From: Siniperca chuatsi
Lineage: Eukaryota; Chordata; Actinopteri; Centrarchiformes; Sinipercidae
DNA length: 64,000 nt
NCBI RefSeq assembly: GCF_020085105.1
Contig: NC_058055.1
Coordinates: 13,345,822 to 13,409,821 of the forward strand
Direction of reading: 5' to 3'
Notes under the pieces: model-generated
Database searches by the model: none
What the model was told of the DNA's origin: nothing
The model's input: the letters and a program-made list of their open reading frames with translations, nothing else
Shown here: positions 2,561-64,000 of the stretch, piece after piece
How positions within the stretch are numbered: the first letter of the stretch is position 1
How the letters are laid out: each line of letters begins with the position of its first letter
Program-made: the position numbers and the translations under genes

Positions 2561-3802
2561 GAAATTTTGCCTGTTTAACCGAGTTTAGGCTACGTGTTCT
2601 TCTCGCTTGAGCATGTTTGCTTGTGCGAGAGTTTGTCTACTGTAATAATATTTCTCCTGCCTCCTTTCATTCCAGATCATGGCTGTAGCTGGGCAGTGAT
2701 CTGCGCCCTTTGTGGTCCTTGACTCTTCCTGCCTCCTCGCACCTGGTGGTAGCTGTTGTTCATGGTGACTGCTGATGTTTCTCCAGGCTTTACAATCCTC
2801 TGTTGACCTTCATGACAACAAACAACAATGTGAAGCACACCATTATTGTTTGCTGGGGCCAGATCCATATGTTAATTGAAACGACCTTCCAATTGTGCAT
2901 ATACTATGTATATTTCTGTACTCTATTTTGCTATCTATATTCATAATTTGTTTGCCAGTCTGAAGCCAGGTTTCCATCCAAATGTAGCACAAATTTAAAG
3001 AAAATCACCAAAAGAAAATGCTACTTAATGCGTGTTTCTATCCACTAGTTACGTGAATATTAAAAGTTGAGCACATTGAGATCAACAGTTGGTGGCGCTA
3101 ATTCTCCAGTCAGGTGCCATTAAACCATTGAAGGAGAAGAGAGCGCAACAAGATGGTGCCAGTCAAACCTCAAACTGTGTAAAATGAGATGGAAATATGG
3201 CATTTATATTTGTTTCATGCAGTAATTTGAGGAACGTTACAGTATCCTCATTGCTCCACACAGATCAGATGTTTCTGTCTATTTTTCGTCTCTTTAGTGG
3301 AGCAGAACTCACGTTTCATGTACGTCATGATTTATTCGTCTGGGTTTTTTTTGCTTTTATCGATTCCACCGATTTTCCACCTCCAAGCCAAGCGCATAAA
3401 CTTTTCTGCGATACTTTCTAGTTTTTTATTTTACTCTGAAGCCTGTTCAAACTGTAACCTGTAAATAAAGGAAATTCAAATAAACTGGATCTGGTGTAGC
3501 CTAAATGGCTAATCTTGCTGCTTGCTGTCCACAGAATCAACAAGAGAAATCAATATCTCTTGTGTGTTATCAATTGTTATCAGTGTATTATCTACAGCTG
3601 TTAAAAAAAAACTACTGAAATTCCAACTAAGACCCAACAGCAGTGCACTCTTTGCAAACCCTGCAGGCAGAGTTGACTGAGACAAAGAATGAACTGTGCA
3701 TAGATTTTTTTTCACTCCTTTTTTAATTGTAAAAACTGAATAAGAGGAAAGTAAGACAATGAACACTACTTCAGATTCAGAAAACGTGCCCAGATCACAG
3801 AT
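2561..3802. other. Intergenic, possible degenerate repeat near 2.96-3.17 kb
   Basis: No gene seen. The stretch starting 'AGGTTTCCATCCAAATGTAGC' in spirit (2969 onward) resembles a dispersed fish element, but I could not find both ends. The remainder is AT-rich with no recognisable content. Confidence 0.4.
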
Positions 3803-4012
3803 GGGCCTTTTCCCACAGAAAATGTTTTTAATATGCCACATTAGGAAAATCACAGGTGTAAATAATAAAATTAATGATGGCTGAATTTCATTTAGCTGCT
3901 TCAGTTTCAGGGTCCTGGTATTGTGCCTGCTGGCTCACTGTCACACTATCATGACTTACTGGGGCACTTGAAAACAACAGAGCCATTGTTAATGTTATTA
4001 GTAACACCTGTG
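3803..4012 (-). mobile_element. Short inverted-repeat element, copy 1
   Basis: The reverse complement of this stretch matches 51684-51890 closely over about 200 bases, including the inner blocks AACAATGGCTCTGTT, GTGACAGTGAGCCAGCA and CCAGGACCCTGAAACTGAAG. A core of about 162 bases is bounded by CACAGGTGT at 3851 and ACACCTGTG ending 4012, which are inverted copies of each other; homology continues outward to about 3803. This looks like a small non-autonomous DNA transposon. The end motif CACAGGTGT resembles a group with ends CAGGTGTACCTAATAA common in fish, which is only a guess. Confidence 0.65.
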
Positions 4013-6867
4013 CTTTTCCTGCTAAGTGAAAATATCTGTGAGAAAGGCCTACATATTTTTTGCCATGTGAAAATCTTTGTAAATCAGGATTGTACTTAAA
4101 CTGCATTCCATGCAACCTGTCATTGTGTAAATAAAAGTCCAAGTTTGCTGAACATCTATTTATTTGCATTAATTTCTGTATCTGCATGTGAGAAGTGTCT
4201 TTGTGAACAACAAATCTGCTAAACCATCTTAATGAAGCTGTATAAATTGCACAGAAGCAGATACCCACCCCCCCGTCTGCATTTCAGATATCATTCACAA
4301 AACAAGAGCAAACAGAAACTTGTGCCATGACTGTAATGTTTTCTGTTTCATCCATATAACAGAAAAATACATCCTTAATTTAAATTAACTTGTGGTAATT
4401 CTGGGTTTGTTTCAGCATGCAACATGTGATTTGAGATAAATTAGATTCATCATCATAGTGTCTTTGAATAGCTAATCTTTGACATGTAAGGCAACGGACA
4501 ATAAAGCTAATAGAGAATTTCAGGCACTTCTGTTTGCTTTAGGAGGAATCATTACAAAGATACCAACTGCACAACTAACACTTATTGCGCTGACTGAAGC
4601 ACTGATTCAATATTTTGGTATTACTGAATTGTCTTAGTGCCTTCCTCCAGCTAGAAAATCCATCTTTTATGACGCTTTGCAAGATTTTTGATCATGCAAT
4701 CTAGCAGGTGCAAATGGATGCGCAAGATAGCATCCACACTTGTACACTTGACAAAATTAAATGTACAGTAAAACATTTGCCACAATTAAAAACGAAACAA
4801 CGTGCCAAAATACCCAACTGCTTTTAATATCCAAAGTCCTTATCCAAAGATCTACATTAATCTTAAAAAGTCTCACCGTCCAAAATATTTTCTTTTGCGA
4901 GGTTGATTATCTACAGCAGTTATTACATCCTTGATCTGTTGTGCTACTAAGCAGCATCTTGTGTTTCAACATATCACCGTTAGCTACACTTTCTCAGAGT
5001 GAAAACAAACTCACTAAAAACTATAAACTCTGCAAATGCTGCAACAAAACTGGGAAACGCGACAAAAACAGGCCAACACCCTGACAGTTAACAAGTAAGC
5101 TAACATAGCTAACGCTATATATATAACTATATATATATATATACACACACACACCCACAGCCCTACTTTTATTGGCCATCTTTTGTATTTAGGTTATATG
5201 CTACTAATGAGTATGAGTTTAGGATTAATGTAGGTTGTAAAATCTCATCTTTCCCTACTTTTTTGCTAAAGGACCATTTTTCAATTTTTAAGCCAGTTTT
5301 TAAGCTGCTTGTCTTAAGCACATTGTTTTAAGGTTACTTAGATTACTAATATTACTATTTCAATTAACAAGTGTACAGCTTCTAATGGTCAGCCATGGTC
5401 AGTCCTATCTGGTAGCACCCTAAAGGATTTAAAAATACCTAATATATAATACCTAATAAAGACAATGAGTAGCCCATTCCTTCTTTGTTTTTCATTTTAA
5501 GCTAAACCCCCACAGTGATCAGCATTTCCGGTAACAACACTGCGCTATACTGAGCGCGGGTACAATAACGCCAATGGTGACTAAGAATGACTAAGTGACT
5601 AACCACATTTATGTAGATAGATAGACAGCAGTGTTAAAGCAGCCAACTCAAAAAGGCAGATAAGTAAATAAAAACATAAATAATAAAAATCTTAACTAGA
5701 AACTGAACTAAAAACTAGGACCACATTCACAGCAGGTCAGCTGAACATACAAAATGTATGAAAAAAAAATTTGTCCAGAGGCAAACATACAATTCAGCAT
5801 ATATGAGGAATAAAGTTTCCAATAATAAATGAATACTTAATTCATATTTACTAGGGATTACATGGAACAGTTCTGTCACGGAAATTCCTCTGGAAATCAG
5901 CACAGTAAGTACCGATACATAGGTACAAAGGAACAAGATGACAAGTTAGGGAATAAGGGGGTGACAATGTGGGAACTTAAAAAGAATTTATACTGTAGGT
6001 ATTTTTAACTACTGGGTACCTATTCAATGTTATTGGGTACAGTATTGCCTACTGAGCAACAATCTGGCATTTGGGAGGAATTTAAAGAGAACTGTAAGTG
6101 TTTTTAACTACTGGGTACCTATTCTAATATAAGCATGACCATCCTTCAGAGCCGCACACAGGTCACAAACGAGTCCAATCAATGTTTGCTGGTGAAGTGA
6201 GTGGCAGCTGAGACTATCTTCCATTGAGCTGTTTTGTATAGAGAAAGATGTTTGCCTGTGGTTTTGGCATTAGGTTTACTAAGTTTTTGATAAAAGTAGA
6301 AAATTGTTTTAAGTTAATTTACCGTTAGAAGAGACGTGCTGAGTTTATGAAATAATCCATCTTTGCATCATATTTTAATTTTGATATTGTACAGTGACTC
6401 TCAATAAAGTTTTTCACTGGCTGTAGTGTTCGTATCCTTTACTGTTCATGACAGTTACGCGACAGGACATAAAATTGATCGTCTACAACTGCCTTGGCCG
6501 TTAGATGGACGCTCCTGGCTTTCACTTCATAAAACTGTACCATCTCAGTCTTCTGAAGTCCCTTGTAAGTACAATGTTGTTCCCCATAAGTAGGCCTACT
6601 TTACAACATACACAGTAACATATAGGCTATGGGCCTGTTCCTGACAATACTCTTTTCCCTGGACCTCTGTACGTTGCAGGTTGTAATCTAAAGAGTTACT
6701 GAAATTTCCTCTAAAATAAAGAGCAACCGCATCAATAGATATGCATGTTCCTGTACCAAAACACAAATGGATATGTATCAAAAACAGCTGGTCTTGCTAA
6801 TTTACGCTGCAGTTTGCACAGCTTATCATGGAACAGACATTCAAGGTCTTGCTGAACTCCCCTGGCT
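4013..6867. other. Intergenic, AT-rich, no gene seen
   Basis: Contains a mixed TA/CA microsatellite at about 5118-5155 and a direct repeat of the 20-mer TTTTTAACTACTGGGTACCT at about 6001 and 6100, about 97 bases apart. Nothing else recognisable. Confidence 0.5.
5118..5155. repeat. (TA)n/(CA)n microsatellite
   Basis: Runs of TA pass directly into CACACACACAC. A simple compound dinucleotide repeat in intergenic DNA. Confidence 0.9.
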
Positions 6868-22707: not shown

Positions 22708-22736
22708 GTGCTTAACCTCCCTCCTGCCAGTTCTGC

Positions 22737-24758
22737 ATGGTCATGACCTGTCATCACGCCCCTTCCACAGCCCACCTCATCCTATTGGTCCTGCTCATTG
22801 TCACTCCACAGCTGGCTGGCACCGCCCCTGCGTGGGGTGAGGGAAGGGAGGGAGGGGTGGAGGGGCGCACCCGGACAGACCTGAAAGAGGACAACCTCGC
22901 CCCCTTTCTCTCGCCCCCACCCCAGCGTCTCTCCAGTCCTGACAACGAGTCGCTGGGCCGTGGCCCGGGTCAAGATAACCAATCAGATAAAGTGACCAAC
23001 CCTGCGCAGGTGCTCGCAGTTCTTTTGGAGGCCCTGGACCACCCAGGGGACAGTGAAATCCAGGCGAGTAGAAACAGAGACTGGGAAGAGGATCAGAGTC
23101 AGGAGCTGCCCTCCATTGAAGGCTTGGAGGGTGGTGGGATAAGGAGAACAAGAGAGAGAGAGGGAGAGAGGGGGGTGGAAAAGGAGGGGCGAGGGGCAGA
23201 TAAGGCTATTGAACAGCTAATTGTAGACCATTTGACAGCTGCTCAGGGTGATGACTTAGAGGAAAGGGATGAGGAGGATAAAAGCACAAGGTCAAAGGAG
23301 GATCAAGGTTGGTCCATAGAAGATGTGGGACCTGAAAGTCTAAGTGAGGAGGAAAGGAAAGAAGAAGATGAGGGGCAGGAGAAGGGAAATTACTTAGGAA
23401 GCTTCTTAAACAAGGCCAGACTGAGTTCCACCTCACTGGGAGATGATCCCTCTCTGCAGCGCAAAATAAGAGGCTACTTCCAAAACATTGACTTGGGTCT
23501 CCAAGATAATGAGATCCTGCCTCCTCTGAAGGGCTACAAGGCGTACAACACTCAGCTAGCACGAGCTGGAAAGAAGCTGCACTGGCAGGAGAACCGGTCG
23601 GGCAACCGCCCCATCAAGGGGGGCAACTTCATGGATGACTTTGAGGATGAAGGAGAGGAGCTGGAGGAGGAGGTTGAAGAAGAAGAGGAGAGCCTCTCCC
23701 ACATAGAAGAGGAGGCGAGAGCACGTGCAGAGAAACAGGAGGTGCTCCGGCAGCAGGAGGAGGCGGAGCGAGCGAGAGAGGAGGAGCAGAGGCTGGCAGA
23801 CATTGCCTCTGACATGCTGCTGCAGTACATGGGGAGGAAGCAGCAGTCCTACATGAAGCCCCGGCAGAAAAGCAGCATGGGGGCTGCTGGCAACACCGCT
23901 GAGGACAAGCGCTCAGAAGAGGTTCTCCCCGATGAAGACGACCTGGACCAGCAGATGATTGACAGGCTGATTGAGATCAGCAGCAAGCTGCACCTGCCTG
24001 CTGATGATGTGATTGAGATTATTAGTGACGTGGAGGAGAAAAAGAAGAAAAGGAAAGAGTTGCAACAGAAGCCAACCAACAGCAATCCTGTTGCCCCACG
24101 CTTCAGGCCTCTGGTACCTCCCCCTCTGGCTGCTCCGCCTATCTACCACTACACAGCCTCAAAAAACCCCAAGAAAGCCCCTTATAAGTACAACAAGTCC
24201 AACAAGAAATGGCACAAGGACAAAGTCAAGTCATACAAGCAGGACTATTGGTATAAGCCTCAGAAGCAGCTTGACTACTGGTATAAACCCCAGAAACAGT
24301 TTTTAGCCTTCCCCTCCTATCCATACTACCAGAAGCCATATCGAGCATACTACCCTGTTTATTTCCCATATCCCAAACCACAATATTATGGCAAGCTCTC
24401 CCCCTCCAGAGACCAGCCGTTCGGCCCCCAGGAACTTGACCTTCAGGCCCCAAGGCGCAGGCACAGGGCTGGGGGTAAGAATCGTGGACAGGGCTGGAGG
24501 CAGCAGCCGGCGCCACGCCTGCCTCTCACCCCTTATATCTCTAACTATATCCTTCCTCACCCACGGACCTACCAACCCCTACCTCCGCCCAAACCAATTA
24601 CCACGCCCAGGAGAGGCAGGCGACCCCCATACTACTATCCACAAGTCACACCGGGCGATGACTATGAGGAAGATGGGCTGGTGCCTCAGCTGGACAGTGA
24701 GGAGGAATTGGAAAACTTTATTGAGAGGATCTACACGAAGCGCAGAATGTACTGAGAG
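22737..24758 (+). CDS. vgf: Neurosecretory protein VGF precursor
   Basis: A single coding exon encodes 672 residues; human VGF has 615. VGF is a granin-like precursor sorted to dense-core vesicles and cut by prohormone convertases into neuropeptides that act on energy balance and synaptic activity. A signal peptide covers residues 1 to about 28 (hydrophobic HLILLVLLIVTPQLAG). Recognisable family blocks in order are QVLAVLLEALD (about 91-101; human LAAVLLQALD), LADIASDMLLQYM (about 353-365), the convertase site EDKRSEE (about 389), the helix IDRLIEISSKLHLPADDV (about 408) running into EEKKKKRKE, and the C-terminal EELENFIERIY (about 656-666). The middle is Glu/Arg-rich and of low complexity. 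Residues about 501-555 form a tyrosine-rich segment with two copies of DYWYKPQKQ, which I do not recall from mammals. The start ATG at 22737 lies 29 bases after the splice acceptor. The stop codon TGA begins at 24753 to 24755. Identity is firm. Confidence 0.93.
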
Positions 24759-42888: not shown

Positions 42889-43840
42889 ATGTCCTCACTG
42901 CTGAAGCCGTTTTCGGTGTGTGAGGGGCCGTGCGAGAGCTGCGGTGTCAGGAGAGGATGCCCGAGCTCGGCTGCCCATCAGCAGCCTCCATCCCGGCGTC
43001 TGGCCGCCGCTGCGGGGCTGGGCTCTCTGCCGGCCCACCAGCGGTCGTACGCGGCGAGGAGAAACCTGGCGGCTGCTGCAGTCGGAGGGAGGAAAATCAC
43101 GCATCCTGGAAAGGCCATCCTTGCAGGTTGATTTTGCAACGCCAATATTCATCCGGCAGATTTTGATCTCATAGTCGCCCATTGCCTTCTGCACAGCACA
43201 GCCTAATCTCTAGTCTGTCGCACATTAAGGCTATCCATGCAGAACTGGGTCAAAACGCACTCAGCTAGCAGTGATGCTACAGCAGTTGCATGTATTTCTG
43301 TCTTTTCTGTATTTATTTATTATTGCGCTCACATTTTATTCATTTGAACTCATCTAAAAGCATATATAAAGATGCTTAAAGGTTCATGCTGCGTATTGAG
43401 TTGAGGCAGGTATACATTCAGCAACCCTCAGCTATTCTTTCCAACAACATACAGACACTGCTGTGTAATCACATCACATACGCCAGGAATGATCTAGCAT
43501 CAGCACCACATTGCAATTAATCCACCTCATCTGTTTAATACTGAAATAGAAATGCTGGAAAGTTCTCTCAGAACATTCAAGAACAGTCCTGCACAGTGAG
43601 TCAACAAATCCCGACAGCAGTGTTTCTCTCTTTCCTCCCTCTCACTCAGGTGGCATTGCAGGAGGAATAGAGATCTGTATCACCTTTCCTACAGAGTATG
43701 TCAAGACCCAGCTGCAGCTGGATGAGAGAGCCAACCCGCCGCGATACAGAGGGATCGGTAGGTCACTGGGACATGTGTGACTGCTGACTGACTGCAGGTT
43801 TGTGTGCCAGTCTTCTGCTGGATTACTCACTCCTGGATGC

Positions 43841-43871
<31 letters not shown>

Positions 43872-45609
43872 GTGACTGTGTGAAGTTGACCGTGCAGGAT
43901 CACGGGCTCAGAGGGTTGTATCGAGGTCTCAGCTCCCTGCTCTATGGATCAATACCCAAATCTGCAGTGAGGTGAAGATGCACACATAATATGCAGTCAC
44001 TTTTACTTGACAGATTTTATGTAAAAGTAAACATTTTAGCCTAAAAAACAGAATGGAGCTGCTATAGAAAAGCACATTTGGTTTATAGCATCGCAGATCG
44101 GCAGGGTTGTAAACTTGAAATTAATTTAGCAGTGACACAGCATTTCTTGGTACTTAAGTAAAAGGCAACCATCAAAAGTTTGCTATAGTTGCTATTTTAT
44201 AACGATTTGACGATGTATCAGTTATCAACACAGTTGCTGATTAATTTTCTGTCAATCAACTAATCATTTAATCAACTATATTACTGCTACTAACAACCAC
44301 TGAGTCAGTTCCCCTATTGTTGTTTATTTTTACCGTTGTTATTCTTGAATGTATCACCTTCCCATCTTTCACAGGTTTGGCACGTTTGAGATGCTCAGCA
44401 ACCCAATGCGAGACGCCACGGGTCGGCTAGACAACACGCGGAGCCTCGTGTGTGGTTTAGGAGCAGGTATAGCAGAGGCCATCGTGGTCGTCTGCCCCAT
44501 GGAGACACTCAAGGTCGGTGGAGCTGGATGCTATTACACGTTTCTTCTATTGTAGGAAGCTCTGTCCACATCTGCTTTTACCAACAATGATCTGAATGAA
44601 CAACAGACTGATGAAATGGTTCTTCCCTCGTCCTCCAGGTGAAGATGATCCATGACCAGTGTTCCCTCAGACCTCGCTACAGAGGCTTCTTTCACGGAGT
44701 CAGCGAGATTATCAGAGAACAGGGTAAGAGAGCAGGATGGATCAACATGGCGGAAACAAGTTGCTCTTATTTCGTTACTCTGCACTTTATTAACACACAA
44801 ACAGTGTAGATACACAGGAGTATTTGAGTCTTGAATCTGTAACTACCAATATGCATATCTGTGGTTTGTGCTCCATAATCTGTTTGACTCATTTAGGTGT
44901 GAGGGGCACGTATCAAGGTCTGACAGCAACTGTGCTGAAACAAGGAAGCAATCAGGCCATCCGATTCTATGTGATGAATTCGCTGCGCAATTGGTACAAA
45001 GGTGAAAAAGCCAACTACCGCAAAACAAAATCCAATGTCCCTGTCCTTGATGACCAGTCTTAGTCCTTTTGATTGATGCATTTTCCTCCTATTTTCTGCC
45101 ATTCTCCATGAATGCAACTTTGGGATTTGGCCTCTAAGGTGACGACCCCAGACGAGAAATGCACCCAATTGTCACAGCGATATTCGGAGCGACAGCGGGA
45201 GCTGCTAGTGTCTTTGGAAATACACCTCTGGATGTGGTGAAAACCAGGATGCAGGTAGGAAAACACACCCTGTGATGATTTTATGACTGTCATCAGGGCT
45301 GCCATTTTTAAGACACTTGTTTTTTTTGTTGTTGTAGGGTTTAGAGGCCCACCGCTACAAAAACACAGTGGACTGTGCCTTCCAGATCTTGAAGCACGAA
45401 GGACCACAGGCGTGAGTAACCCTGATCCAGCTCCTGATGCATGCTGTTAACTTTTCAAACCATCTAACCTCATGTCATCTTGTCCTTCGTGCAGTTTCTA
45501 CAAAGGGACAGTTCCCAGGCTTGGCCGCGTGTGCTTGGACGTGGCCATAGTCTTCGTCATCTATGAGGAGGTGGTCAAACTACTCAACAATGTGTGGAAG
45601 ACCCAGTAG
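42889..45609 (+). CDS. slc25a1: Mitochondrial citrate/malate carrier (tricarboxylate transport protein)
   Basis: Nine exons: 42889-43126, 43650-43757, 43872-43971, 44375-44513, 44639-44723, 44897-45001, 45139-45254, 45338-45411 and 45495-45609; 1080 nt, 359 residues (human 311). The carrier exchanges matrix citrate for cytosolic malate across the inner membrane and so supplies acetyl-CoA for fatty acid and sterol synthesis. Three Solcar repeats carry the PxD/ExxK/R signatures [16 protein letters not shown] and PLDVVKTR. Blocks such as [40 protein letters not shown] and [18 protein letters not shown] are near identical to human. The N-terminus before KITHPGK is about 69 residues, some 48 longer than human; it is Arg/Ala-rich in its second half ([20 protein letters not shown]), which would suit a cleavable presequence. 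The start ATG has AAA before it (A at -3) and no further in-frame ATG lies upstream after the last stop. Identity is firm; the exact start is less so. A slc25a1a/b paralogue choice cannot be made here. Confidence 0.95.
43842..43869 (+). repeat. (GT)n microsatellite abutting slc25a1 exon 3
   Basis: The GT run ends directly at the CAG acceptor of exon 3 and replaces the usual polypyrimidine tract with TGTG alternation. An unusual but probably functional acceptor context. Confidence 0.85.
44195..44285. mobile_element. Degenerate CGATTAATC-type repeat in slc25a1 intron 3
   Basis: The blocks ACGATTTGACGATGTATC, GATTAATTTTCTGTCAATCAAC and TAATCATTTAATCAACTA recall the same family as 32425-32512. 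The copy is short and old. Confidence 0.4.
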
Positions 45610-49889: not shown

Positions 49890-52800
49890 TCTTAGGCCTA
49901 CAGCACCATCACCTGGACAACAGCAGTATTACACACAGATTCATTTATAATCCACTAGACAAGATGAGCTTTGTTGCTCTTAGTGGTTGAGAGATCTTCT
50001 TACTTTCCAGTGCGTCCATCCCAGATTTTTATGGACTTATCGAATGAGGCGGAGGCGAGAAACCTGGTGTCTGGGGAGAAGAGCACTTCATTGACCAGAG
50101 CGCTGTGGCCGGTCATCCTGGCCAGAGGCTTCTTGTCTTCTGCAGGGTTCCACAGGAACAAGGTGAAATCATCTGAGCCAGACACCAAGCGCTCTGGAGC
50201 TGGACCCTGCACCACGAGAACAGGAGTGAGGGTAGTGATACAAGAGGCATACACACTTGAACACAGACAACAAACAGTACTTACCCTAACTTTATTATAT
50301 CTCTGCAAAGCTTTCTCCTTCAGCTCTTCCACTAGGGGAAACACAATGTTTGTTAAATGCAAACATCTTGCAAACATCTAAGCCAGAAACTAAGCCAGAG
50401 CAGCAAATGTTCCCGCTAGCACGGTATCCCATAAGAAAGTTTCACGATCCTTACATGATCCAGTAAGGTCCTGGGGGTTGACAGTGGCAGTTGCGGGTTC
50501 AAAAGCTCCAGTGCGCAGGACATAGTCTGTGCTGAGAGCCAGGGTGTTCACCCAGTGGGCGTGACCCTGCAGAGTCCTGCACTGGACACCCTATACTCAC
50601 AAATACAAAATACACACACATTAAGTCTTGCTTTGACACACAGATGTCTCCTCCCTTTCATTTAACTCATTCTGTCCATGGCGATCAACAATTGAAAACC
50701 TGTCTCAGCCACACACACACAAGTTTGTTTCACTATCCCCGTGGGGGACAGTCATTGACATAATGCTTTCCCTAGGCCCTTACCCTAACCTTAACCTAAT
50801 TGTAACCTGTACCCTAAAACCAAGTCTTAACCCTCAAAAAGTGGTCTCTACCGATGGGGACCTCAAGTTTTGTCCCCACAGTGACAAGTCCCCCTGGGTC
50901 ATTGTGCATTCAAGTTAAGGTCCCCACCAAGATATAAGAACATGAAACACACACACTTACATCTTTGGCTCTCCAGACTTTGACTGTTCTGTCCTGGGAA
51001 GAAGTGTAGAGAAGTCCATCTCCTCCCCACTTCACACAGGTGACTGACTGAGTGTGACCAGTCAGGATCTTCTCACAGCGTCCCAACACAGTGTCCCAAA
51101 TACGCACTGAACCGTCCTTAGAGGTACTGGCCAAGTACCGACACTCTGGGTTACTGAAAGGGAGAGGGGGAGGGGCGGATCAGAGGAACAGGAAATCAGG
51201 ACAGAATACTCAAAACAATGTTTCCCCAATTCAAAATCAAGTATACTCTAGAGAGAGCCAAAGTCTTGATGTCACTTCCTGGCTAGTCGCTATTCCACCA
51301 GCCTTTGTAACTCATTGCAGTCTCTCAAGTTAAACCAAGATTAAATTGTTAGCATACAAAAAACTAGCCTACAACTCACATGAAGATTTTACCAGTGTGG
51401 CAGCGCAGGTACTTTGGTCGGTGTAACTTACTATCATCCATATCAATAAAAACCACCAGCACTCTCTTCGAAAGTTTTTTTTTTACTGTAGTTGTAATCT
51501 CTGCTATCTATAAACATATACAGTACGCTGTTCACTCCTCTCTGTTCTGCTGTTATTACAGCTATATCTGAACTAACCACGGCCTGTTGACTCACCAATA
51601 GACTCGCCTCAAGTAACTCAATTACAGTACCATTTTGTACTAAACAGGAAATGATGGAACGTCTGCACTGACTTAACTGAGTGCACAGGTGTTGCTAATA
51701 ACATTAACAATGGCTCTGTTCTGTTCCCAGTATGCCAAGCCAGTGTGACAGTGAGCCAGCATGTACAACACCAGGACCCTGAAACTGAAGCAGCTAAATG
51801 GAATTCAGCCATTTCATTATTTACACCTGTGTTTTTCCTAATGTGACACGTCAAAATGTTTTCTGTGAAAAAGGCCAATAGTTGTTGTAATTTTACAGTT
51901 TCAAAAGTAAAATATATCAGTGCAGAAGCTGTATCTGAATGGGAGTTCAGGTCAGCAGCAATTTGCAGAAATGAGAAAGTGATGAATTGAGTCCTCACAG
52001 ATGGAGAGGTTCCCAGCAGAGCCAAGTGATCCACTTGGTGTGTCCTGTCAAAGTCTTCCCCATCTGTGTACCTGTCACTGGATCCCACAGACAGATCTAC
52101 AGAAACAGCACCACATAAAATAAATACATCATATTCATGGGATACATCTTAAAAATACAGATCAGACATCAGTGTGTTGGAAGCTCACCTGACTGTTCTT
52201 GCATCCTGAAGCCAGCTTCTTGCCATCAGGTGACCAGGCGATGCTCAGTACCCAATGTGTGTGTCCTGAAATAAAGCCGAATACAACTCAATGGTGTCTA
52301 AAACCATTAATCACTCATTTGTATCTTGATGTGTAGCAGATCATGCTGCCCTATAGAAGTGGCTTCATACCTCGGGCAGTGTGGTGAGGTGTCTCAGTCG
52401 TCAAGTCCCAAAAACGCACTGTGGTATCACCTGAACCGCTGGCAAGATATCTGAAACAAACAACAACAATTTAATTAACAGGATGTCTAAATCTAACTAC
52501 GGGTGTGTCTTCAGAACATTGTTTATAGTTTTGTCCCCTCTAATTGGTGTTACATCCTAAGGGCAAAAAAGTATGACAGGCAGGGAAAAGTTAATTCTGT
52601 AGAAGAATTACTCACTTGCCGGTGGGGCTGAAAGCAGTTGAGATGACAGCTTCTGTGTGTCCCTGTAGTGTGCTGGTACAGCGGGCGACAGCTCGGACCC
52701 TGAACACAGCCTGAGGCTGGTACACCACTGGCAGAACCTGCTCTGTCTCGACCCCAAGAGCCTTCACACACGACCGCAGACTGGACACCACCTCTGACTC

Positions 52801-53440
52801 TTGCACAAAAAATGCCAGTGGCACTGGCTCCTCCTACAGAGGAGGACAGCTTTCAGCTATACATACCTTTAATTACTGTGTCTGAGAAGGGTTAAAACAG
52901 AAACCAATGTATGGCCTGTGAGGTGTTTGAGAGATGATCTCTTTGTAGGATATTTAAGTGTTAGGGAATACTGAAATCTGCATTTGGTTACTTGAATAAT
53001 GTTACTTAAATTTGGGATTTATCATGTTAAATTTACCATGATAGCAGCGAGAAAGGTGTTCAAGACTACAGCAAGTGATATTGTCATTGTAGCATATATA
53101 CAGTAATACTTCCTTCACTGTTAGAATGCTATCCTTTACACTCTGAAACACTGAGACACACATTTTCATTTAAAATTGAATAATGTATATGTGGACAAAG
53201 CCTGGCTGAACATATAAGACTGAAAAGTCTTCATATGCAGATGTGTACAGCCTAATCACAACTTAAATTCTGTATTTTTGTTATATAATGCCAGCTGGTT
53301 ACCTTCTGTAGCAGTGCATTGCAGACGAGCTGTAGTTTGTCCGGGGTGATGTCCAGAGGCACATCAAAAGGTGAATCCAGAACCTCCCCATTCTCGTCCT
53401 GAAACTGGATCAACAGCCGCTCCAGGTTCTCACTCGTCAT
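49345..53440 (-). CDS. nle1: Notchless homolog 1 (60S ribosome assembly WD40 protein)
   Basis: Twelve coding exons on the minus strand: 53303-53440, 52616-52833, 52371-52450, 52189-52265, 51999-52096, 50961-51153, 50455-50590, 50285-50331, 50004-50206, 49634-49793, 49464-49534 and 49345-49357; 1434 nt, 477 residues (human 485). NLE1 (yeast Rsa4) is a late-nuclear pre-60S factor; its N-terminal ubiquitin-like NLE domain is gripped by the MIDAS domain of midasin/Rea1, whose ATPase strips it off. It was first named for an effect on Notch. The NLE domain spans about residues 1-75 ([20 protein letters not shown]). WD40 repeats follow from about residue 100, with GH...WD cores such as [61 protein letters not shown] and [16 protein letters not shown]. 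The end KDKCLRIWRR is as in human and comes from a last coding exon of only 13 nt. Identity is firm. Confidence 0.95.
49836..49886 (+). repeat. (CA)n microsatellite in nle1 intron
   Basis: About 25 uninterrupted CA units, 43 bases upstream (on the minus strand) of the 49634-49793 exon. Confidence 0.95.
50716..50940 (+). repeat. Dispersed CCCTAACCTTAACC-type repeat in nle1 intron
   Basis: GTTTCACTATCCCCGTGGGG, CAGTCATTGACATAATGC, CCCTAACCTTAACC and ACCAAGTCTTAACCCTC occur in the order of a well-known percomorph dispersed repeat. The telomere-like CCCTAA-type units belong to this repeat and do not mark a telomere. CA tracts flank it on both sides. Confidence 0.55.
51684..51890 (+). mobile_element. 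Short inverted-repeat element, copy 2, in nle1 intron
   Basis: Inverted partner of 3803-4012. Ends of the core are CACAGGTGT at 51684 and ACACCTGTG ending 51831, with shared homology on to about 51890. It lies inside the 845-base intron between the 51999-52096 and 50961-51153 exons of nle1. Confidence 0.65.
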
Positions 53441-54930
53441 CCTGTTTGGTTTAGATCCAAATCTAACAACAATATATTTACATAGATGGAGGTATAGTCA
53501 CATATGATATACTAATTTATGTACATACTGTAATGTCAGAAAAATCATACAGGCAATTGTTAATAATGTTTAGTTTCCCCTTAGTGTTTGGGACATCTCT
53601 GAATGGCAGTTCCCTGTTGTAAAATATTAAACTTATTTCTGCTGAAAGAATACATCCAGTCCCTAATAAGACAATCAAAGTGGAGACTTTTAAATGTTGG
53701 GGCTCGCGTTACTTAAAACCCAAATCACGTTGCGTTTGCATCAAAGTAGATTTTGCTTAATGAATACAGTTCACTACGAGGTGTTATCATTTCTCAAATT
53801 TGTCATGAAGGCAACATTATAACTTAGCTAACGTTGTTATAGCAAAGATTTGGGCCATATCGTAGCACCCGAAATGGACTGCCTAGCGGTTTACTTTTAG
53901 CTAACGTTAGCCTATGTCAACCATAATCTATGCTCTCAACCACTAAAGCTAACTCAGCTAGCCTGCTGTTAGCCAGCATTTCTGACACCTAATTCCTTTT
54001 TAGCAGCGATCGCACAACAGTAAGATAACCGCCACTTGTTTACACAACTGTGTCCATTTTTATATGACATCTGATTGGCACATACATGTGCTAAAGCTTT
54101 ACCTTTAGCGAGGTAGCAATGTGTTAAAACTCCCCACGTGTTTATCACCGAAGAACCTTTCAAGGAAAGATACACCAAGAAACCGGAATTGTCATGTCAG
54201 TGAACAGATTCGCGCAATGAATTATGGGAGAGTAATGTTGTAATTTGTTTCCTTAGTTGGATTGCCGTACTACTTTACTCATCTTCACTTTTATTACATT
54301 TCTGTAACTTCTCTGCTCGATATTTCTAAAACTATGGTTATTGTTAAATTAGATAAATTAGTGTTTAATTATAACACTGAAATAATAATAACAATGATGA
54401 TAATAAAAAATACACACACACACACACCATCATCACCATCAAAGTAGGATCATAAAGTCATACCTGCCTATCACTTCCCATATGAAACTGATCTGGCTCT
54501 TTAATCCAAACCATGGCGTCCTTTTCTGATGACAACGATGATGTATCACTGTCATGGGTAATACGTGTTTCGGCAATAAAACCGAAAAATGAAAAAAAAT
54601 GAAAAACCGATGAAAAACAAGAATGTAGCTAGCCGAGTTTGAAAGAGATACAGGCCACTGCATCTGCCATACCAACACACACATACAGGGCTTCTCATAC
54701 TTTTTTGAGCATTTTTCTTATCTGCTCATTCATACTTTCAAATAGAAACTCCATTCAAACCTTAAAATGTTCCACATCTTTAAATGCAATATGAGGTTTA
54801 TTCAACTTTTAAATCCTATTCATACTAATTAGACCCTTTCCTATGTTTCCAAGTCTTCATAGTCCTTTAGCTACTTTGTCATGCAAACCTAAGACAGCAA
54901 TGCAGTTTAGCTCAAAGCCATCAATATAGC
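53441..54930 (-). other. nle1 5' leader/promoter region and upstream flank
   Basis: No gene seen. The nle1 start codon lies at 53440; the transcription start is unknown. Sequence near 53.8-54.2 kb has a few CG dinucleotides and TAGCTAACGTTAGC-like palindromic words. A short CA tract sits at 54413-54426. Confidence 0.35.
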
Positions 54931-55417
54931 AATGTGATGTGATGTATAGTGTGATGTCATAGTATAGTTTGATATGTCATAGAATAGTTTGATGTATGTG
55001 TCATAGTATAGTGTGATATAGTAGTGTGACATATCATATAATATGATGTCATAGTGTACTATATGTATATCATAGTGAATGGCAGTATAGTGTGATGTGT
55101 CATAGATTAGTGTGATGTCATAGTGTACTATATGTCACAGTATAGTGTGATGTGTCAGAATATTGTGATGTCATAGTGTAGTGTGATGTCATAGTATAGT
55201 GTGGAATGTCATAGAATAGTTTGATGTATCCTATGATGTGTCATAGAATATTGTTACGTAATAGTATAGTGTGATATAGTAGTGATATATCATATAATAT
55301 GTCATAGTATACTATATGTATATCATAGTATCATTAGCAGTATAGTGTGATGTGTCTTAGTTTAGTGTGATGTCATAGTATATTATGATATGTCATAGTG
55401 CGATAGTGTGGTGTTAG
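54931..55417 (+). repeat. Degenerate minisatellite of TATAGTGTGATGTCATAG units
   Basis: For nearly 490 bases the sequence is built from words such as ATAGTGTGATGTGTCATAG, TATAGTTTGATGT and GTCATAGTATAGTGTGATG. Unit length varies from about 14 to 25 bases, and ATATGTATATCATAGT blocks recur about 270 bases apart, which suggests a higher-order duplication. Confidence 0.85.
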
Positions 55418-55734
55418 TACAAAATAAAATGCTGAGTTACAGGTTACAGACCTGAGCTATTGGTCATTTACTTTACGTAGAAATACTTCTTATATGTCAA
55501 TGACCTTTCACAGTCAGCTGCTAATTTTCATTTTGGGGGGTTTAACACATTTTAATCAAGAGAAAAACAGAAGTCCATCTAGGCTCTACTGATTTATATT
55601 GTGAAGAGACAATTTCAATTTCAAAGTGAAAATGCCAACAAAATAATGTTTGGTTTTGCTCTTCCGTCCATACACTTAACTTGGACTTTCCTTGTCAACT
55701 AGCATTAAGATTGGTCAGTCAATTACTCAATTAC

Positions 55735-56023
55735 TAGGGATGCACAATATATATTGTGCCGTTAAATTATCGGTTGATAATTTATTATTTATTATTATGT
55801 ATTATTCCGATAATGAAATTATAGCTGATAAATAGAGCTGATCATACAAAGCCAACATTGCTTTCATTGACCTAACCTGGCAGCAGCTGTTGTCGAGCTC
55901 ATGACATCAAACTGCTGCACCTGGGTAGAACCACGCAGTGTAGACTAGAGAGCCGAACATGTCATCGCTGGTGTGGACGTAACAGCAAAACGTTTGATAG
56001 GGTTAGCATATCGTGCATCCCTA
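55735..56023. mobile_element. TAGGGATGCAC terminal-inverted-repeat MITE
   Basis: The left end TAGGGATGCACAATATA and the reverse complement of the right end TAGGGATGCACGATATG match over 17 bases with two differences. The left inner part carries GGTTGATAATT and CCGATAATGAAAT words. This fits a common fish MITE whose core is rich in ATCGGCCGATA, here decayed. It lies downstream of the 5-phosphatase gene. Confidence 0.7.
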
Positions 56024-56602
56024 TCATTTACCAGAAGCATCTTTCTGCATTGACACTGTACAGATAAAGTAAAACAGCCTGCATCAACATAGAATTTTCT
56101 ATACAATGGTTCTTTATGATTGGCAGATCTTTCTTCCACTTATTGTACAACCATCTGCACTGGCACTTATGTAGACCAAACCAAAACATAAAAATGTATT
56201 TTCAAATACAATTTGACAAAGGACTGTATTGACCGGCAGTGCACGTCCACTATTTTCAAAAACAAAACTTAACTTATTCCTGTATTTTCTGCTTTAACAG
56301 GCAAAACAGGCCTGTGGATAAGCTGAGCGTCTACTCATTACAGTGATAAACCTTTTTTGTAGAGAAACTGTTCCAGCGAGAGTGAAACTGACTTAAGGTG
56401 AACTCCTTAAAGGCAACGTTGTAAACAACAAATTGAAGTTTCCAGTCCATTGATGGCACAGTGTGGTGGCCATTATTTAACAACTGAGTCAGCTTATCCA
56501 GTAGATGATGTAGTTGATCTTGGGGCATTTGAAAGTCTGAATCAATTCTGTGTGAATTTCCAGGGGAGAGGAATAAGATGTGGCACTGCAGTGAATTGGT
56601 TC
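56024..56602 (-). other. 3' leader region of the 5-phosphatase gene
   Basis: No further coding exon. No clear AATAAA on the minus strand was found within 500 bases of the stop, so the transcript end is undefined. Confidence 0.35.
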
Positions 56603-59600
56603 TTATTTGTTGAGCCCATTGATGTTCTCAGGAACAAGGCCTTCCATGATGGCACGCTTTGACTCCAGGATCTGCAAGATCGAAAAGATGTTTAAACTAA
56701 ACAGTCCACTGCAACAGCTCTGCCATAAATTCTACTTTTACAAAGTTTATAATGTTCAGTTTTTGTTATATATGTCAGTTCATTTGCTGTATATGTTTAT
56801 TACTGAGGTCATTGCGGTAGTGTTGTACTGGGCTACATTATATTGAGAGGTGTTTCAAAAATGTTGTCCTCCCCATTTATATACATTATATAACACCTCT
56901 GAATACCTCTGTTGCTGATGACAGTTCAGTATAATGTTTTATTTTTATTTTTTATTTTTTTTAACAATTACTCATAGAAACAGTGTCTTAGGGCATAAAT
57001 GAAAAAATCCTCTTCTAAGTAAACAAAGGATAATAAGGTAATGACATATAATAAAGTATAACTACAGATGTCATAGTGTACACTCACCTGGAAGTTGGCA
57101 CTGAGGCCGATGATGCTTTGCATGTTTGTACTGTAGTAACCCAAAACATACTGTCCACCTAGCAGAGGGATCTCATCCTTATCTACAGATATCTGCAACC
57201 AAAACACACACATACACACATGCATATTAATGAAGCATGCATTCACATATTATTTGTCCAAACATGATACAAATGCCTCACTTGCACTTCACCTGTATGA
57301 CTTCATTTGTCTCTGGCAACTCGTCCTCTCTAACCCAAACAAAGGTTTCATAATCGGATGCACTCTTGAATCCCACCTGCAGGAGAACAACCCTATGAAA
57401 TCTGTCTTGTATTATATTGTTTGTTTGGTCCCCCCCCCCCCTGTCGGTCCCAGTACCTTGTACAGGCCAATCCAGTCCCATGTGGAGGACATGAAGTCCT
57501 CTTGGATGGTGTAGTTCAGAAGTGCATCGTGGTCGGCACTCCATACACCCACAGTAGATATGTGCACCATTGGAGTGTCAAAGCACTTCCTCAACTGTGG
57601 GTAAGACAGGAGAAAAGATGGAAGGAGCTTAATAATGTAGAAAAAAACTCTTCATTTAGTGGTTGTATCAGAAGGAAAAAAAGCAGACTTATATGTAATG
57701 ATTAACAGAATTGAGCAGCACAAAACCGAGTCCTAGCATTCTACAGTGAGTCTGCTCTTACCTCCAGACTGAAGGTTGCAATGACAGGTTTGTGGTCACT
57801 GACTCCGTAGCTCATGTCACTGGTGTATTTGTCCTGAGTGACCAGGAGTGGATACTCATCGAGTCCATCATCAGTAGAAGTCGATGCCTTCTCATCATCA
57901 TCCTCTGATGGCGGGGTTTTGGGTTTGATGCGCCAGAGGATCCGATCCGTCCAGGCCGGTTTCCTCTTCTTGCCACTGAGCAAAGCAAAGGCACGTGTTG
58001 ATACTACAGTTTCCAATCTGAGAATGAGTTGAATTCTCAGTTTCTAATGCTTACCTGATATGTTACATTTCCATTTGTGTCTATCAACCTAACTGACAAT
58101 TCTTATTTTTACACAAAAATATTGGAAAAAGTACTGTTCAAGAACACACACTCACACACACTCACACAGACATACACACACACATGCAGTGCAAAGCTAT
58201 ACCTACAGTGTAGCATGATGTGGAGAGATGATGGATGTCAGGAGTGAACACTATCATTTGACATGGTATTACAGCTTATGTACACATTCAACACATATCA
58301 ACAACACATATATTATGCAAGAACAAACAGTGGGGTGCTGGGTGCAGGAGTTGTCTCAGGTCTAGGTTATTATGTTTACTAAACCCCTTTGTGTCTTGTC
58401 ATTTATATCAGTGTCTCCAGGTATTTTGTGATTGTAGGTCATATGTATATAACCATCATGGTGCCTATTCTATAGTATGGGGCCGTCGCTCATTGCTACA
58501 GGGCATATCTATGGAGACACCCACCTTTGCGGGTCTAGCTCCCTGTACCAGGCCCCCAACCAGACAGAGAGCAGGCCCCATGTGAGGGAGGTGAGGAGGA
58601 AGAAGAGGGTGGTGCTGCTGCGCTGCAGGGGCCTGGGTCTGTACATGGTTAGGGGCAGCGCCACAGTGCTCTTTCTGAGAGAGACACATACATGGTGCTA
58701 GAATGGATATGACTCACAGAAAGAGCTGCTCCCAACTTCATCTATACGTCAGGGTTTACTGCTTCAGCTACTCTGGTTTCCTGTTTTGTGTCTCAGCGGT
58801 TACATGTTTCGTTGAAACGAAACATGTGGTGGCAAAAGGTTCGGGGGAAAGGAACAGATGGTGCGGTGATGAAGAAATAAGGGAATGTGGGGCATGCAAC
58901 ACAAAAAAACGTAGTGTGCCTTACTTAAAACCCAACCATCTCTTCGGAGTGCTGTACAAAATCCAAACGGGAACAAAAGCACAGGTGAAGTTTGAGAAAT
59001 GTGTTGAGTATTTGTGTGTAGTATATTTGTTTGTCACACATGTTACCTGGTATCATAAGTTTCAGAATTACGGTCAAACTTGTAGGTGGGTTTAAAATTT
59101 AATGGCCCTTCCTCAAATTCCTGCAGGAAAGGTTCCTTCTTCTTCATCATGAGGAGCTGCAGGAACATGACATAAATTAGCGAGTGTGCGTTATTGTGTG
59201 CGTGTGTATACGTGTGCTTATTGCAGCACTTCACCTGGTCTTTGTTCCACAGCAAATTAAGGCGTCCGCTGTTGATGGAAGAGCGGAGGAAGTGCAAGCC
59301 GTGGTCTGCGATACGGAAGTTCAAGTCGCCAAACCAGAACACCACCCTATGTGAGAGGGATGGAGCCTCACTTTACCTGCTGTACAACAACCCTCAGTGC
59401 ATATATTTATGTGTGTGTGTGTGTGTGTGTGTGTGTTTGTGAGCGTGTAGTGTTTGTGTGCTTCTATGTAGGTGTACTGACTTGTGGTCCAGGACATGTG
59501 GGGTGTCAGAGATGTCAAAGTCTTGTGCCTCCAGGATGTACTCAAACTCATCAACACGCTGCAGAGCATAGTTCATGTGAGCTGCTAGGTGGCAGTTAAG

Positions 59601-61955
59601 GAAGCACACCATGTGGCCGTAGAAGGAAAAACGCACGGACACTCCTCCTTTATTACCCTGACACAGATAAACAGAGGAAGAATATAGTATGTGAAGTGAA
59701 AGTGGATTTCCAAAGAGTCAAACAATAATTTTAAAGTCATATTTAGTCATCTTTTAGGAATAATGAATGCGGACCAATTATGAGTAAAAATACAGATTCA
59801 TTTTACTGCAGTTTTTACAAGAAAATGAAATATACTGTAGTTTAAACACCTCTTAATCCATATTTTTACCATGAATAAAAAAACAGTTTGGCCGTGATTC
59901 AATCAGATGATGTTTTTCCTGTAACTTGGATTATGGATTAGACCATTTGCCTTGCAAGTGTTTGCCCCAGTGTACCGCACCAGTTTTAGTGTTCTTTGTT
60001 TGTGATTTCATTCTGTCAAAGCTGTTGCACATTCCACTAAACAAACACAATAGGCCTTTCATAATGTGTTTAAACTCTACAGCTTCTGATACCAGTGGGA
60101 TTCCTGATGTGCAGAGTTTAATAGTGTTGTTGTCTACAAGGTTCAGGGCTTATTAGCGCTACCACTGTTATTTCCTACCCAGTAGCCAAAGATGCCAGTA
60201 CGAGTGTAGGTGGTCTGAATGTTTCTGATGTAGGGGAGATGAATTTGTTTGGCAAAAACCAGCAGCAGCAAACCCTGCATCCTCATTGATGTGACCTAGA
60301 CAGAGATGGAGATAAATTTTATTACATTTTTTAAAATTTAATTTGTTCAGTTTTAGAAAAAAAAAACGTTATTCGAAATATTTTCCTTTTATTTCTCCTG
60401 TAAAATATATAAATGACATATATGTAATATTATGGATGGTGATTTTTATTATATGAGAATACGTAAATATACAGCTTAAAGAAAAATGTATTGCATTAAA
60501 GCTCTAATCAAATGAAACAACATACTACCAGTCTCACACTGTAAGTACACAATATCAAAAAGAAAGAGAGTATTTGAGGATTTTTATGCAAAGTAGCCTC
60601 ATGGTTATATAAGTTTTCAGACACACAGTAGCCTTCAAGACGCTATTATTTATATCAGCTGTTTAGGTACACATATCCACATCCACACATAAATACACAG
60701 AACCCAAATGTGTAACTTCTGTTTTCACACAGTACTATTTCTCTCCATCTGTCCTCTCTCACCTTGACGAAGCCTCTGGGTGCCAGTGTGTCCATGAAGA
60801 CATGGCTCCAGGAGTCCTCCACTAACAGGTCAGAGATGAACCTCACAGGGGTGGCATTCACCTCCTGCAGGCTGACACACACCAACACAAACAAATGAAA
60901 AACACAACACACAAAAGAGACAGTTTTAGCCTTCGGTCCAATTCCTGGCAAAGTTTTAAATTCCAGTTTCTATATTGTTATTTCTCACCCAATCACATAG
61001 AGGTCTGTGGGGGGCTGGACCTCTAGTTGCAGCAGAGAGGTGACGTCTTCAGGAGGCTCCGCTGTGGCCACGTTCCAGGTCACCATGTGCAGTCTGTCAG
61101 TGTTAGGTAATGACAAGAATTAACCAAAGTGAAGGAAAAAGATAAGATATTGATAAATGTCAGTTGCATTGCTATATTTTCCTTGTTAATATTGTAAATA
61201 CTCAGAGTTATTGTATTCACTTTTCTATGGAAATGTAAGTGATAATACTGGAAAACAAAAACATTTTAATCCTAGTCAATTTTAAATTTAAGTTAATTTT
61301 AAGTTATTTTTACTTTATTTCTACATGCGCTTTCATTCATTTTAACAAAATATAATACAGCATTCAACAGTTTGTGTCCTTGGACATTAGAAAATATTAT
61401 AAAATAACAAGGAAAAAGTACAGAAGACATTAATAACATATTCACTTTTCAGCCAAATCCACATTAAAAAAAATCTTTTATGGATAATTGGAAACCACTA
61501 TTGATTTGTCAAACTGTAAAGAAACCCAGACATGATCCAGATACATTTCAAGTGAAGTTCCTGTCAGGTTTTTGCACTTTTTGATCTTAGCATCTTAGCT
61601 TCTACAATATGAGTCCTTTTCTCTAAGGTGGTGATGGCAAGAAAGTATAAAATAAGGTCTTGGTTATTTCAGAGAACTCAAACGCTTCCTGTGTGAACTT
61701 GTGTATGTGTGAATAAGCACGTGCACATGTCAACCTGAATGCATCTGTGGGAATGAAGCGCCCACAGAGCTGAAATGCTTCATCCAGCGTGCGGGACACT
61801 TCTTCACTGGCTTCATCGTCAGAGCTCATGTCCTCTATGCAGGTCAGCAGCTGAGACAAACGCTGGCGGAGGAGCATCTTGGACCTCGACCCCTGAGACG
61901 CTGAGCTGCTCATGCTGTCTGAGCGCACGCGTGGACTGTCTGTCAAAAGGTCCAT
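56603..61955 (-). CDS. inpp5k: Inositol polyphosphate 5-phosphatase, INPP5K (SKIP)-like
   Basis: Twelve coding exons on the minus strand: 60989-61093 follows 61735-61955, then 60763-60871, 60179-60295, 59482-59657, 59235-59346, 59047-59156, 57762-57975, 57457-57594, 57293-57376, 57088-57192 and 56603-56671; 1560 nt, 519 residues. The enzyme removes the 5-phosphate from PtdIns(4,5)P2/PtdIns(3,4,5)P3 and damps PI3K/insulin signalling; human INPP5K also acts at the ER. Catalytic motifs are [13 protein letters not shown] (about 77), GLQEVN (about 109), GYWGNKGGVS (about 182), [18 protein letters not shown] (about 245), [13 protein letters not shown] (about 319) and SDHKPV (about 376). A SKICH domain follows ([18 protein letters not shown]) and the protein ends soon after it, as in INPP5K (448 residues) and unlike the longer proline-rich INPP5J. 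The first about 73 residues are a Ser-rich, acidic extension not present in the human INPP5K I recall. The start ATG at 61955 lies 14 bases after a good acceptor, so a non-coding exon lies further upstream. Family is firm; INPP5K over INPP5J is likely. Confidence 0.85.
58143..58186 (+). repeat. (CA)n-rich tract in 5-phosphatase intron
   Basis: CACACA units broken by CTCACA and CATACA. Confidence 0.8.
58525..58674 (-). other. inpp5k: Predicted in-frame cassette exon of the 5-phosphatase gene
   Basis: Inside the 1.07 kb intron between exons 59047-59156 and 57762-57975 lies a 150-nt open block with acceptor TGTCTCTCTCAG and donor CAAAG|GTGGGT. Both neighbours break the reading frame after the second codon base, and 150 is a multiple of three, so inclusion keeps the frame at both junctions. 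The 50 residues begin [16 protein letters not shown], contain the hydrophobic [19 protein letters not shown] and end AWYRELDPQ. The block is GC-richer than the intron around it. It would enter the catalytic domain between YDT and [11 protein letters not shown]. No such insert is known to me in human INPP5K. Use in real transcripts is unproven. Confidence 0.5.
59411..59436 (+). repeat. (GT)n microsatellite in 5-phosphatase intron
   Basis: Thirteen GT units between exons 59482-59657 and 59235-59346. Confidence 0.92.
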
Positions 61956-64000
61956 CTTTGGATCTTAGACTGAAAAAAGGTCTTGCTGGTGTTGTTACTT
62001 GTATGTCCTCAAGATTACTCAAATAAAAAATAAAGATGCAAAAGGGCAAACAAGCAAAATCCAGTGGAAGAGATGCCTTTTGTGTGATTTCTACTCAGAC
62101 TTCTTTGGGTGGTTTGGTTGCAGCCATTTGATGCAAGGCCACTCTGCTCAGCCCACTGGAAGTAACATGAACCGATTCCTGGTTAGTCAAATCTCTCCGC
62201 ATGTGCTTCAGGCAGCTTCTGATTTCAGTCCTCCAAACTGGCCGGGAGAAAAACTCGAAAGCCCAGGGTGAAGTTTAGTGCAGTCCTTTCCGTGGCAGAG
62301 CCCCGTGTGGTCGTGCAGCAATGGAGCAACAACGACTGACAAAGCAGTGGGGTCGACTCAGGAATGTGGGCAAGAATGAGTCCGATTTGGACTATAATCG
62401 CAGGCAGGAGACAGGCATGTGAACATGTGTGTGTTTGTCTGTGTGTGTGTGTTGTTAGGGAGAGTAGAAGAGGAGGACCAGAGGCTGATCCTCCATCATT
62501 GAGTATTGTTTCAACACTTGGGTAACCCTTTAGATCCCTAAGAGGTTTACTACCAGCGCTCTCTCTATCAGCTGAGTGCACTGAACAATGCATGTAACCC
62601 TGCAATTACAGTCATGCATTAGTGAGGGGACGACAGCGCACAATAGCATTAGCTTCTTTTGGCCTCAATCCAGTCTCTTCTCATATAGGTAAAAGGTTAT
62701 CTTTGTAAACCCAGAGAGAAGTGGGGGGTTACATGCAGTTTTGTAAGCTCTGACACAAACGTTTAAGTTTTGTTTTGTTTTGTTTTTTTGTGTTTGTGTT
62801 AAGTGTTACAGCACAGTTAGTAGTGGACAAATTACATAATAGATTTGGAAGCACACAATAGGCCTACATGAAGCAACCAGCAACTCCGACACATTTTGCC
62901 TAACACTTAAATGGCTTAAAGATTTCAAAACTATGAATGCAGTGAGCTAATATTTTCAACTTAGATGAAAAGTTCAGTTACAGAATTAAGTAGCCAATAT
63001 TGTAAAATGTGTCTCTCTGTAAAAAAGAAGAAGAAAAAGACTAGGATTAGAGACAGCAGGATACTGTTTTACTGTTTTACACACTGGCTTCAATAATTTA
63101 GAGATCCTGAACTATACACATCATAGTAAACACACTGTTTGGTATTTTGGAATACAGTTCATCATATATTCTCTTCAGCAAACTTACAAATTTGAGGCTC
63201 AACATTTTTTTTATCCCTTAAACTTATTTACTTGTTGGATCACTGAATCTGAAACTATAGACAGAATCATATATATCTATATATAGATACTGTGTTGATT
63301 GTTGCCATGTGGGGGAAGTATTCCAAAAGCAATGGAAATTAATTATATAGCATTATTTGAGGGATTACATTATTTCATCTAAAACTACTCACTTATGAAA
63401 TAATTTCTGTTTGAGTTACTGGTAGGGTGGGAGAGTTCAAACAATAAATCATGGCATAAAGTCAACAGCATTTTAATTTCTGGAGAGCTGTTGGGGGACA
63501 ATACTGTATAAAGAAAAAGACGGATTCTTGGAGGATAGAAACAACCAGAAGAGATTGCCCCATACAAAATAAAAAATGCTAATCTTGGGTGCCTCAGTTC
63601 TCCCTGCCACTTCATGTAACAGCGTCACATGCAGAGACTTAGGGCACATTCTTTAGCAAGTAGAAGTGTTAAGTGGATAACCGAGGGGGTTCACCGGCCC
63701 ATTGAGAAATGATGAATGGGTGACTATTTAAGTTTTATCACAGAGCCCTGCAAAGCAGCCTCAAAGCTACTTATGAAGGTTAGGCAATTCAGACACTGTA
63801 CAGGAGGGTAATACCTTCTTTTTCTGGACTCTCTCGGTCTCTACATACATACTTTTATGCCTGAAGTCTGTGCTTTCTCTCACAATTGCTTTCATCACCA
63901 TTTTCTCTCTCTTTCCTTCCTACTCTTGCAAGACCATTAGAGGACAACACAGAAGAAGAAGAGGTCTGTATGAGATTCTGATCTTACCTGCACTTGTCTC
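61956..64000. other. 5' flank of the 5-phosphatase gene
   Basis: 61956-61969 is the coding exon's short leader, preceded on the minus strand by a pyrimidine-rich acceptor (CCTTTTTTCAG). The remaining 2 kb are intron or upstream DNA; the non-coding first exon could not be located. No repeat or second gene was recognised. Confidence 0.4.

Follow-up and report, generated by a model that had tools for sequence, protein, structure and literature searches.

Does the intron that interrupts the 5-phosphatase domain of an INPP5K-like gene in Siniperca chuatsi hold an optional exon and, if so, what would its inclusion do to the enzyme? We addressed this in a 64,000-nt stretch of contig 14 (the window), using for comparison the 718.8-Mb assembly of the same genome (65 contigs). 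The answer that we favor is that the intron holds not one optional exon but two.

Host Gene and the Intron in Its Catalytic Domain

The gene occupies the minus strand between 61955 and 57088 or beyond, and its product has a 5-phosphatase domain (Pfam PF22669) as well as a SKICH domain (PF17751). PF22669 matched the ORFs of two exons (E = 7.9e-16 and 3.6e-08), and PF17751 matched an ORF at 57412-57651 (E = 2.4e-10); a second SKICH piece, on the ORF at 56968-57249 (E = 0.00045), scored 21.1 bits, under the 23.4-bit cut-off. Eight modelled exons, running from 61955 to 57762, splice into one open frame, and the GC content at third codon positions (GC3) of the whole modelled CDS is 0.64. The top relative of the 145-residue catalytic core was human INPP5K (PDB 22mj; E = 2.1e-44), the closest among 18 matching PDB sequences with E up to 0.001, and no INPP5J chain was present among those 18. 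By sequence, the host gene looks like a teleost-type INPP5K. Its N-terminal extension and a 27-nt exon are consistent with the zebrafish inpp5k genes, both of which have an alternative exon 1 extending the N terminus (excerpt of PMC10239392), and the extension modelled here may be the counterpart of that exon. The extension (61955-61735, minus strand) also resembles a stretch of a gene copy on contig 7 (L014:561-752, plus strand), with 52% identity over 64 residues, RVRSDS included. The features discussed are as follows, with the evidence for each in parentheses.

61735..61955, minus strand: first coding exon modelled, starting with 14 residues not spelled out here, the N-terminal extension (frame; similar stretch in the contig-7 copy)
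59047..59156, minus strand: constitutive exon preceding the intron, ending in NSETYDT plus AG (splice sites, frame)
57976..59046, minus strand: host intron, 1071 nt, at YDT/S of the 5-phosphatase domain, in the putative P4IM (L4) loop (frame; loop placement from PDB alignments and excerpts of PMC5550278 and PMC7781601)
58925..58951, minus strand: microexon candidate, 27 nt, adding residues in frame (10 protein letters, not shown) (phase; similar stretch in the contig-7 copy; zebrafish 27-bp alternative exon in the excerpt of PMC10239392)
58525..58674, minus strand: 150-nt block, a probable alternative cassette exon that encodes 50 residues, a hydrophobic stretch among them (frame, phase, splice scores and bounded coding signal; paralogs without counterpart)
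57762..57975, minus strand: constitutive exon following the intron, starting with 11 residues not spelled out here (splice sites, frame; Pfam PF22669 on the ORF at 57741-58043)
57088..57594, minus strand: SKICH-coding exon span (Pfam PF17751; exon ends from splice scoring and exon scan)

Where the intron falls in the protein can be judged from the PDB alignments, in which YDT-S-G-K-K-R-K-P of this gene aligned with DT-S-E-K-C-R-A-P of INPP5B. K516 and R518 of INPP5B belong to the P4-interacting motif (P4IM) on loop L4, a loop that in SHIP2 is extended relative to other 5-phosphatases (excerpt of PMC5550278). In SYNJ1 the motif consists of Y784, K798 and R800, and a Y793C mutation in the same loop lowers activity (excerpt of PMC7781601). 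From the alignments and these motif positions, we infer that residues inserted by either candidate exon would enter the P4IM (L4) loop that holds the 4-phosphate of the substrate, two residues ahead of the lysine equivalent to K516 of INPP5B.

The original prediction had assumed that type II 5-phosphatases are uninterrupted in this region. That is true of the chains of human INPP5K (22mj), INPP5B, OCRL and SYNJ1, which share the fold and motifs. In the alignments shown, YDT-S-x-K-x-R-x-P-A-W runs without a gap against the exon-skipped form, and, unlike the exon-included forms, these chains carry no insert at YDT|S. However, the premise is a loose one, because SHIP2 has an extended form of this loop, with residues contacting substrate phosphates, which as far as described in the excerpt of PMC5550278 is constitutively encoded rather than supplied by an optional exon.

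Several other features of the window were recorded. Positions 3801-4013 and 51683-51879 form an inverted dispersed repeat (82% identity over 213 columns), and a local repeat array with overlapping copies 66-85% identical occupies 54933-55414. On the plus strand, 22716-24755 is a 679-residue stop-to-stop frame, charged and rich in proline and tyrosine, which had no Pfam match at E 0.01 and looks by eye like a secretory precursor. The top exon-like score of the window fell at 42899-43188 (minus strand), a GC-rich patch that is probably a false positive and lies upstream of plus-strand exons resembling those of a mitochondrial carrier (Pfam Mito_carr on 44794-45060).

Coding Signal and Relatives of the 150-nt Block

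The block (58674-58525, minus strand) lies between an acceptor, tctctctcag|A, and a donor, AAAG|gtgggt. As had been claimed, it is 150 nt long, symmetric in phase (two borders each after codon base 2), open (zero in-frame stops) and GC-rich (0.63, vs 0.41 in the remainder of the 1071-nt intron). It joins in frame between YDT and the next 12 residues of the INPP5K-like gene, which gives a block-included reading of 67 residues, and its peptide contains the 19-residue hydrophobic stretch first described, with a Kyte-Doolittle mean of 1.72.

The splice sites scored 3.2 (acceptor) and 6.0 (donor), inside the range of the gene's constitutive exons, although these scores, like those of the exon scans, depend on matrices of vertebrate splice-site frequencies. 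To that extent the sites are good, but they are not unique, because a splice-like pair on the plus strand at 58502-58590, over part of the block, scored higher (4.3 and 7.0). The plus-strand frame that shares third positions with the block is open across 58453-58701.

Is the coding character of the block unlikely by chance, as the original prediction held? An open frame by itself is common and thus weak evidence: 29% of 5000 shuffles of the block were open in the same frame, and 232 of the 2554 150-mers of the window were open in one given frame. The claim held, however, for codon composition. The GC content is 0.51, 0.53 and 0.86 at the first, second and third codon positions, respectively, and a GC3 of at least 0.857 was reached by none of 5000 dinucleotide shuffles. 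Similarly, the codon score of 0.84 bits/codon was reached by none of 3000 shuffles, whose mean of 0.42 indicates that composition explains about half of the block's score. With a codon model for which the gene's own eight exons were the only training set, the block also scored above all 368 intronic 147-mers of the same gene (maximum 0.14), which overlap one another, and above the eight modelled exons themselves, scored by leaving one out (0.13 to 0.63).

Moreover, this signal is limited by the splice sites. In 36-nt steps along the minus-strand frame, GC3 was 0.42 until the acceptor, then 0.75, 1.0, 0.83 and 0.92, falling to 0.42 at the donor, with 0.67 one step later. When the whole window was crudely scanned for exons on both strands, the block ranked sixth among the 45 non-overlapping exon-like candidates listed, after exon 8 of the gene, an exon of a WD40 gene, two stretches of the 679-residue ORF and the probable false positive. 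Splice sites, symmetric phase, open frame and coding signature were therefore all found in the block. We read it as a cassette exon because it keeps the frame, has splice sites and shows a coding signal that does not extend past them. A cassette exon within the catalytic domain, the core of the original prediction, is well backed by the sequence, and the exon is probably genuine.

The picture was different when relatives were sought. A search of the own genome with the spliced protein (32 matches, E up to 0.001) revealed a second INPP5K copy, matched on contig 7 as eight pieces with 50-71% identity. Conservation of the block was looked for in a set of three paralogs, i.e., this copy and genes on contigs 18 and 5 (L014, L015 and L016), the latter two genes being probably INPP5J. 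No counterpart was found in any of the three by tblastn (chance matches only, best E 0.71) or by blastn (best E 0.40), and a blind exon scan of the contig-7 INPP5K intron returned nothing matching the block. The intron at this site is only 109 nt long in the contig-18 paralog and 202 nt in the contig-5 paralog, and L017, a gene on contig 14 that resembles synaptojanin, has no intron there. Either this copy acquired the block, therefore, or the other genes once had it and lost it, or their versions are too diverged to be recognized. The idea of a conserved signalling switch finds no support here, no counterpart of the block having been found in the second INPP5K copy and two further paralogs. 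A young exon need not be shared by paralogs, and the 150-nt exon is probably restricted to a lineage.

That no counterpart was found in three paralogs would also be expected of an unused or decaying pseudo-exon, i.e., a GC-rich, pyrimidine-rich patch that is open by chance between splice-like sites. The even higher-scoring splice-like pair on the opposite strand of the same patch points the same way, as does the probable falsity of the top-ranked candidate in the same window scan. We nevertheless consider a pseudo-exon unlikely, although it deserves to be taken seriously, because neither the GC3 nor the codon score was matched by any shuffle and because the signal ends at both splice sites.

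It is rather improbable that the block is coding but is something other than a cassette exon of INPP5K. One form of this explanation is an alternative first exon: an internal ATG starts MYRPRPLQR ahead of the hydrophobic stretch, an arrangement like a type II signal anchor, and the product would carry a signal anchor ahead of the PAWTDR part and SKICH. However, the coding signal is already present upstream of this ATG, from the acceptor onward, with a GC3 of 0.75 in the first 12 codons. The other form is a nested gene, on one strand or the other, to which the block would belong; the open antisense frame with the same third positions would suit this, but its codon score is lower than that of the block (0.57 vs 0.84). 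Finally, exon shuffling or exonisation, with another gene or a mobile element of this genome as the donor of the block, would suit its presence in one paralog only but is highly improbable, because an own-genome DNA search with 201 bases, in which very common words were skipped, gave a single match, the block itself, and the viral and prokaryote collections gave none; a diverged donor could have escaped such a DNA search.

Other assignments were tried and rejected. For a transposon-derived exon, the own-genome DNA search yielded no related copies. No Pfam or NCBIfam family, including those of membrane proteins, matched the block peptide (best, LrgB at E 0.16), and a PDB search with the peptide gave no relative above chance (best chain, E 1.9). 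Two pattern searches for a viral or prokaryotic source produced 55 and 575 stretches, none of them confirmed by tblastn. Rfam had no match at gathering scores across 50000-64000. Besides its own position, the intron had just two matches in the window: a CA-type tract of 41 bases, and an inverted self-match of 26 bases that lies outside the block. None of the direct repeats listed for 57000-60000 reaches into the block.

A 27-nt Microexon Candidate in the Same Intron

The block had been described as standing alone in its 1.07-kb intron. This was refuted by a symmetric, phase-matched 27-nt stretch at 58951-58925 (minus strand), upstream of the block and lying in frame between splice sites, with ttttgtacag before it and gtaagg after it. 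The splice scores of this stretch are modest (1.4 and 2.2) and its codon score is neutral (-0.03 bits/codon). The reading frame of the gene is kept with the microexon or the block, singly or both together.

In the contig-7 copy, a 2445-nt intron at the same codon contains a 27-nt stretch in the same phase, encoding RLYRTWFGFN, and in both copies the stretch is near the 5' end of the intron (base 153 on contig 7, base 96 in the window). When both introns were scanned blindly for symmetric phase-2 exons, the window intron gave two independent candidates, the 27-mer and the block, the latter accompanied by three shortened forms, while the contig-7 intron gave its 27-mer, as the top candidate, and one shortened form. 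The conservation is modest, with 16 of 27 bases identical, and 17 of 2000 simulated intron pairs were as good. With six donor bases added, 21 of 33 were identical, and 2 of 3000 simulated pairs with an open frame were as good, a figure that is flattering because the donor bases and the open frame were demanded after the match had been seen. The sole other equally good pair between the two INPP5K copies was a constitutive exon. The contig-18 and contig-5 introns contain two and three symmetric open AG..GT stretches, respectively, and none of these, including one of 27 nt on contig 5 (SNTYTLLSES), has a WxGF-like pattern.

Vertebrate microexons are 3-27 nt long and often neural. The candidate resembles this class in its length and in its in-frame addition of residues to the surface of a domain. 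Judged from the two introns, the optional exon common to both INPP5K copies is this putative 27-nt microexon, which the original prediction missed.

In zebrafish, both inpp5ka and inpp5kb have, in predicted transcripts, a 27-bp alternative exon 9 not found in humans (excerpt of PMC10239392). The two systems are alike in gene family, in the length of 27 and in the presence of the exon in both duplicates. In that excerpt the 27-bp exon is given without its sequence or intron, so we infer from length, presence in both copies and approximate exon count that it is the microexon seen here. Being common to both copies, and probably to zebrafish too, the 27-nt microexon is probably older than the 150-nt exon. 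By contrast with the window gene, the zebrafish account, as excerpted, names no 150-nt exon, and the titles and abstract openings of the INPP5K literature found do not mention one. No literature pairing "microexon" with INPP5K was found.

Two Candidate Exons and Their Predicted Place in the Substrate-Gripping Loop

We place at about 0.5 the probability of the joint reading, in which the P4IM loop of INPP5K receives two optional exons, an older microexon that retunes the enzyme and a 150-nt exon that inactivates it. The reading starts from anatomy, frame, coding signal and paralog sharing, all taken from the DNA; splicing in vivo, placement in the loop, and the effects on activity and membrane association are predicted from these. 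The YDT|S intron would thus hold two phase-matched exons, each inserted in the same L4 loop.

Inclusion of the 27-nt microexon would add nine residues to the loop, some of them aromatic and some basic. Since the length of this loop already differs within the family, a modest expectation is that the enzyme stays active but shifts in its preference or in its contact with the membrane; the microexon would retune membrane contact or substrate choice and leave the fold intact.

The 150-nt exon, seen only in this copy, would instead lengthen the loop by 50 residues, a hydrophobic stretch among them, although the chain has to come back to where the loop began; the long L4 loop of SHIP2 is not known to be hydrophobic. 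Inclusion would strike the loop that grips the 4-phosphate, which makes altered or lost activity plausible, and because a single membrane crossing would split the catalytic domain across two sides of the membrane, loss of activity would be the likeliest effect. The predicted isoform would have little or no 5-phosphatase activity, would keep SKICH in frame and would perhaps be seated in a membrane. For the membrane tethering first proposed, hydrophobicity is the sole support; a re-entrant or surface-lying hairpin is conceivable for the 50-residue insert. A bolder version, which we regard as speculative and rather a long shot, is that splicing at this one intron sets both the length and the nature of the P4IM loop. 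With no insert the output would be active enzyme, with the nine-residue aromatic and basic microexon a retuned enzyme, and with the 50-residue hydrophobic cassette, driven into the bilayer by the membrane-facing loop as a re-entrant hairpin, a membrane-seated, catalytically silent carrier of SKICH.

Mutations in INPP5K cause muscular dystrophy (excerpt of PMC7773396). Zebrafish Inpp5kb is nearly inactive, and the excerpt of PMC10239392 leaves open the reason for this and the role of the extra isoforms. If the exons described here are used, the loop with which INPP5K grips its substrate would be under the control of splicing. Such a loop would be a concrete lead on isoform function, and constructs or antibodies representing a single isoform may miss the others.
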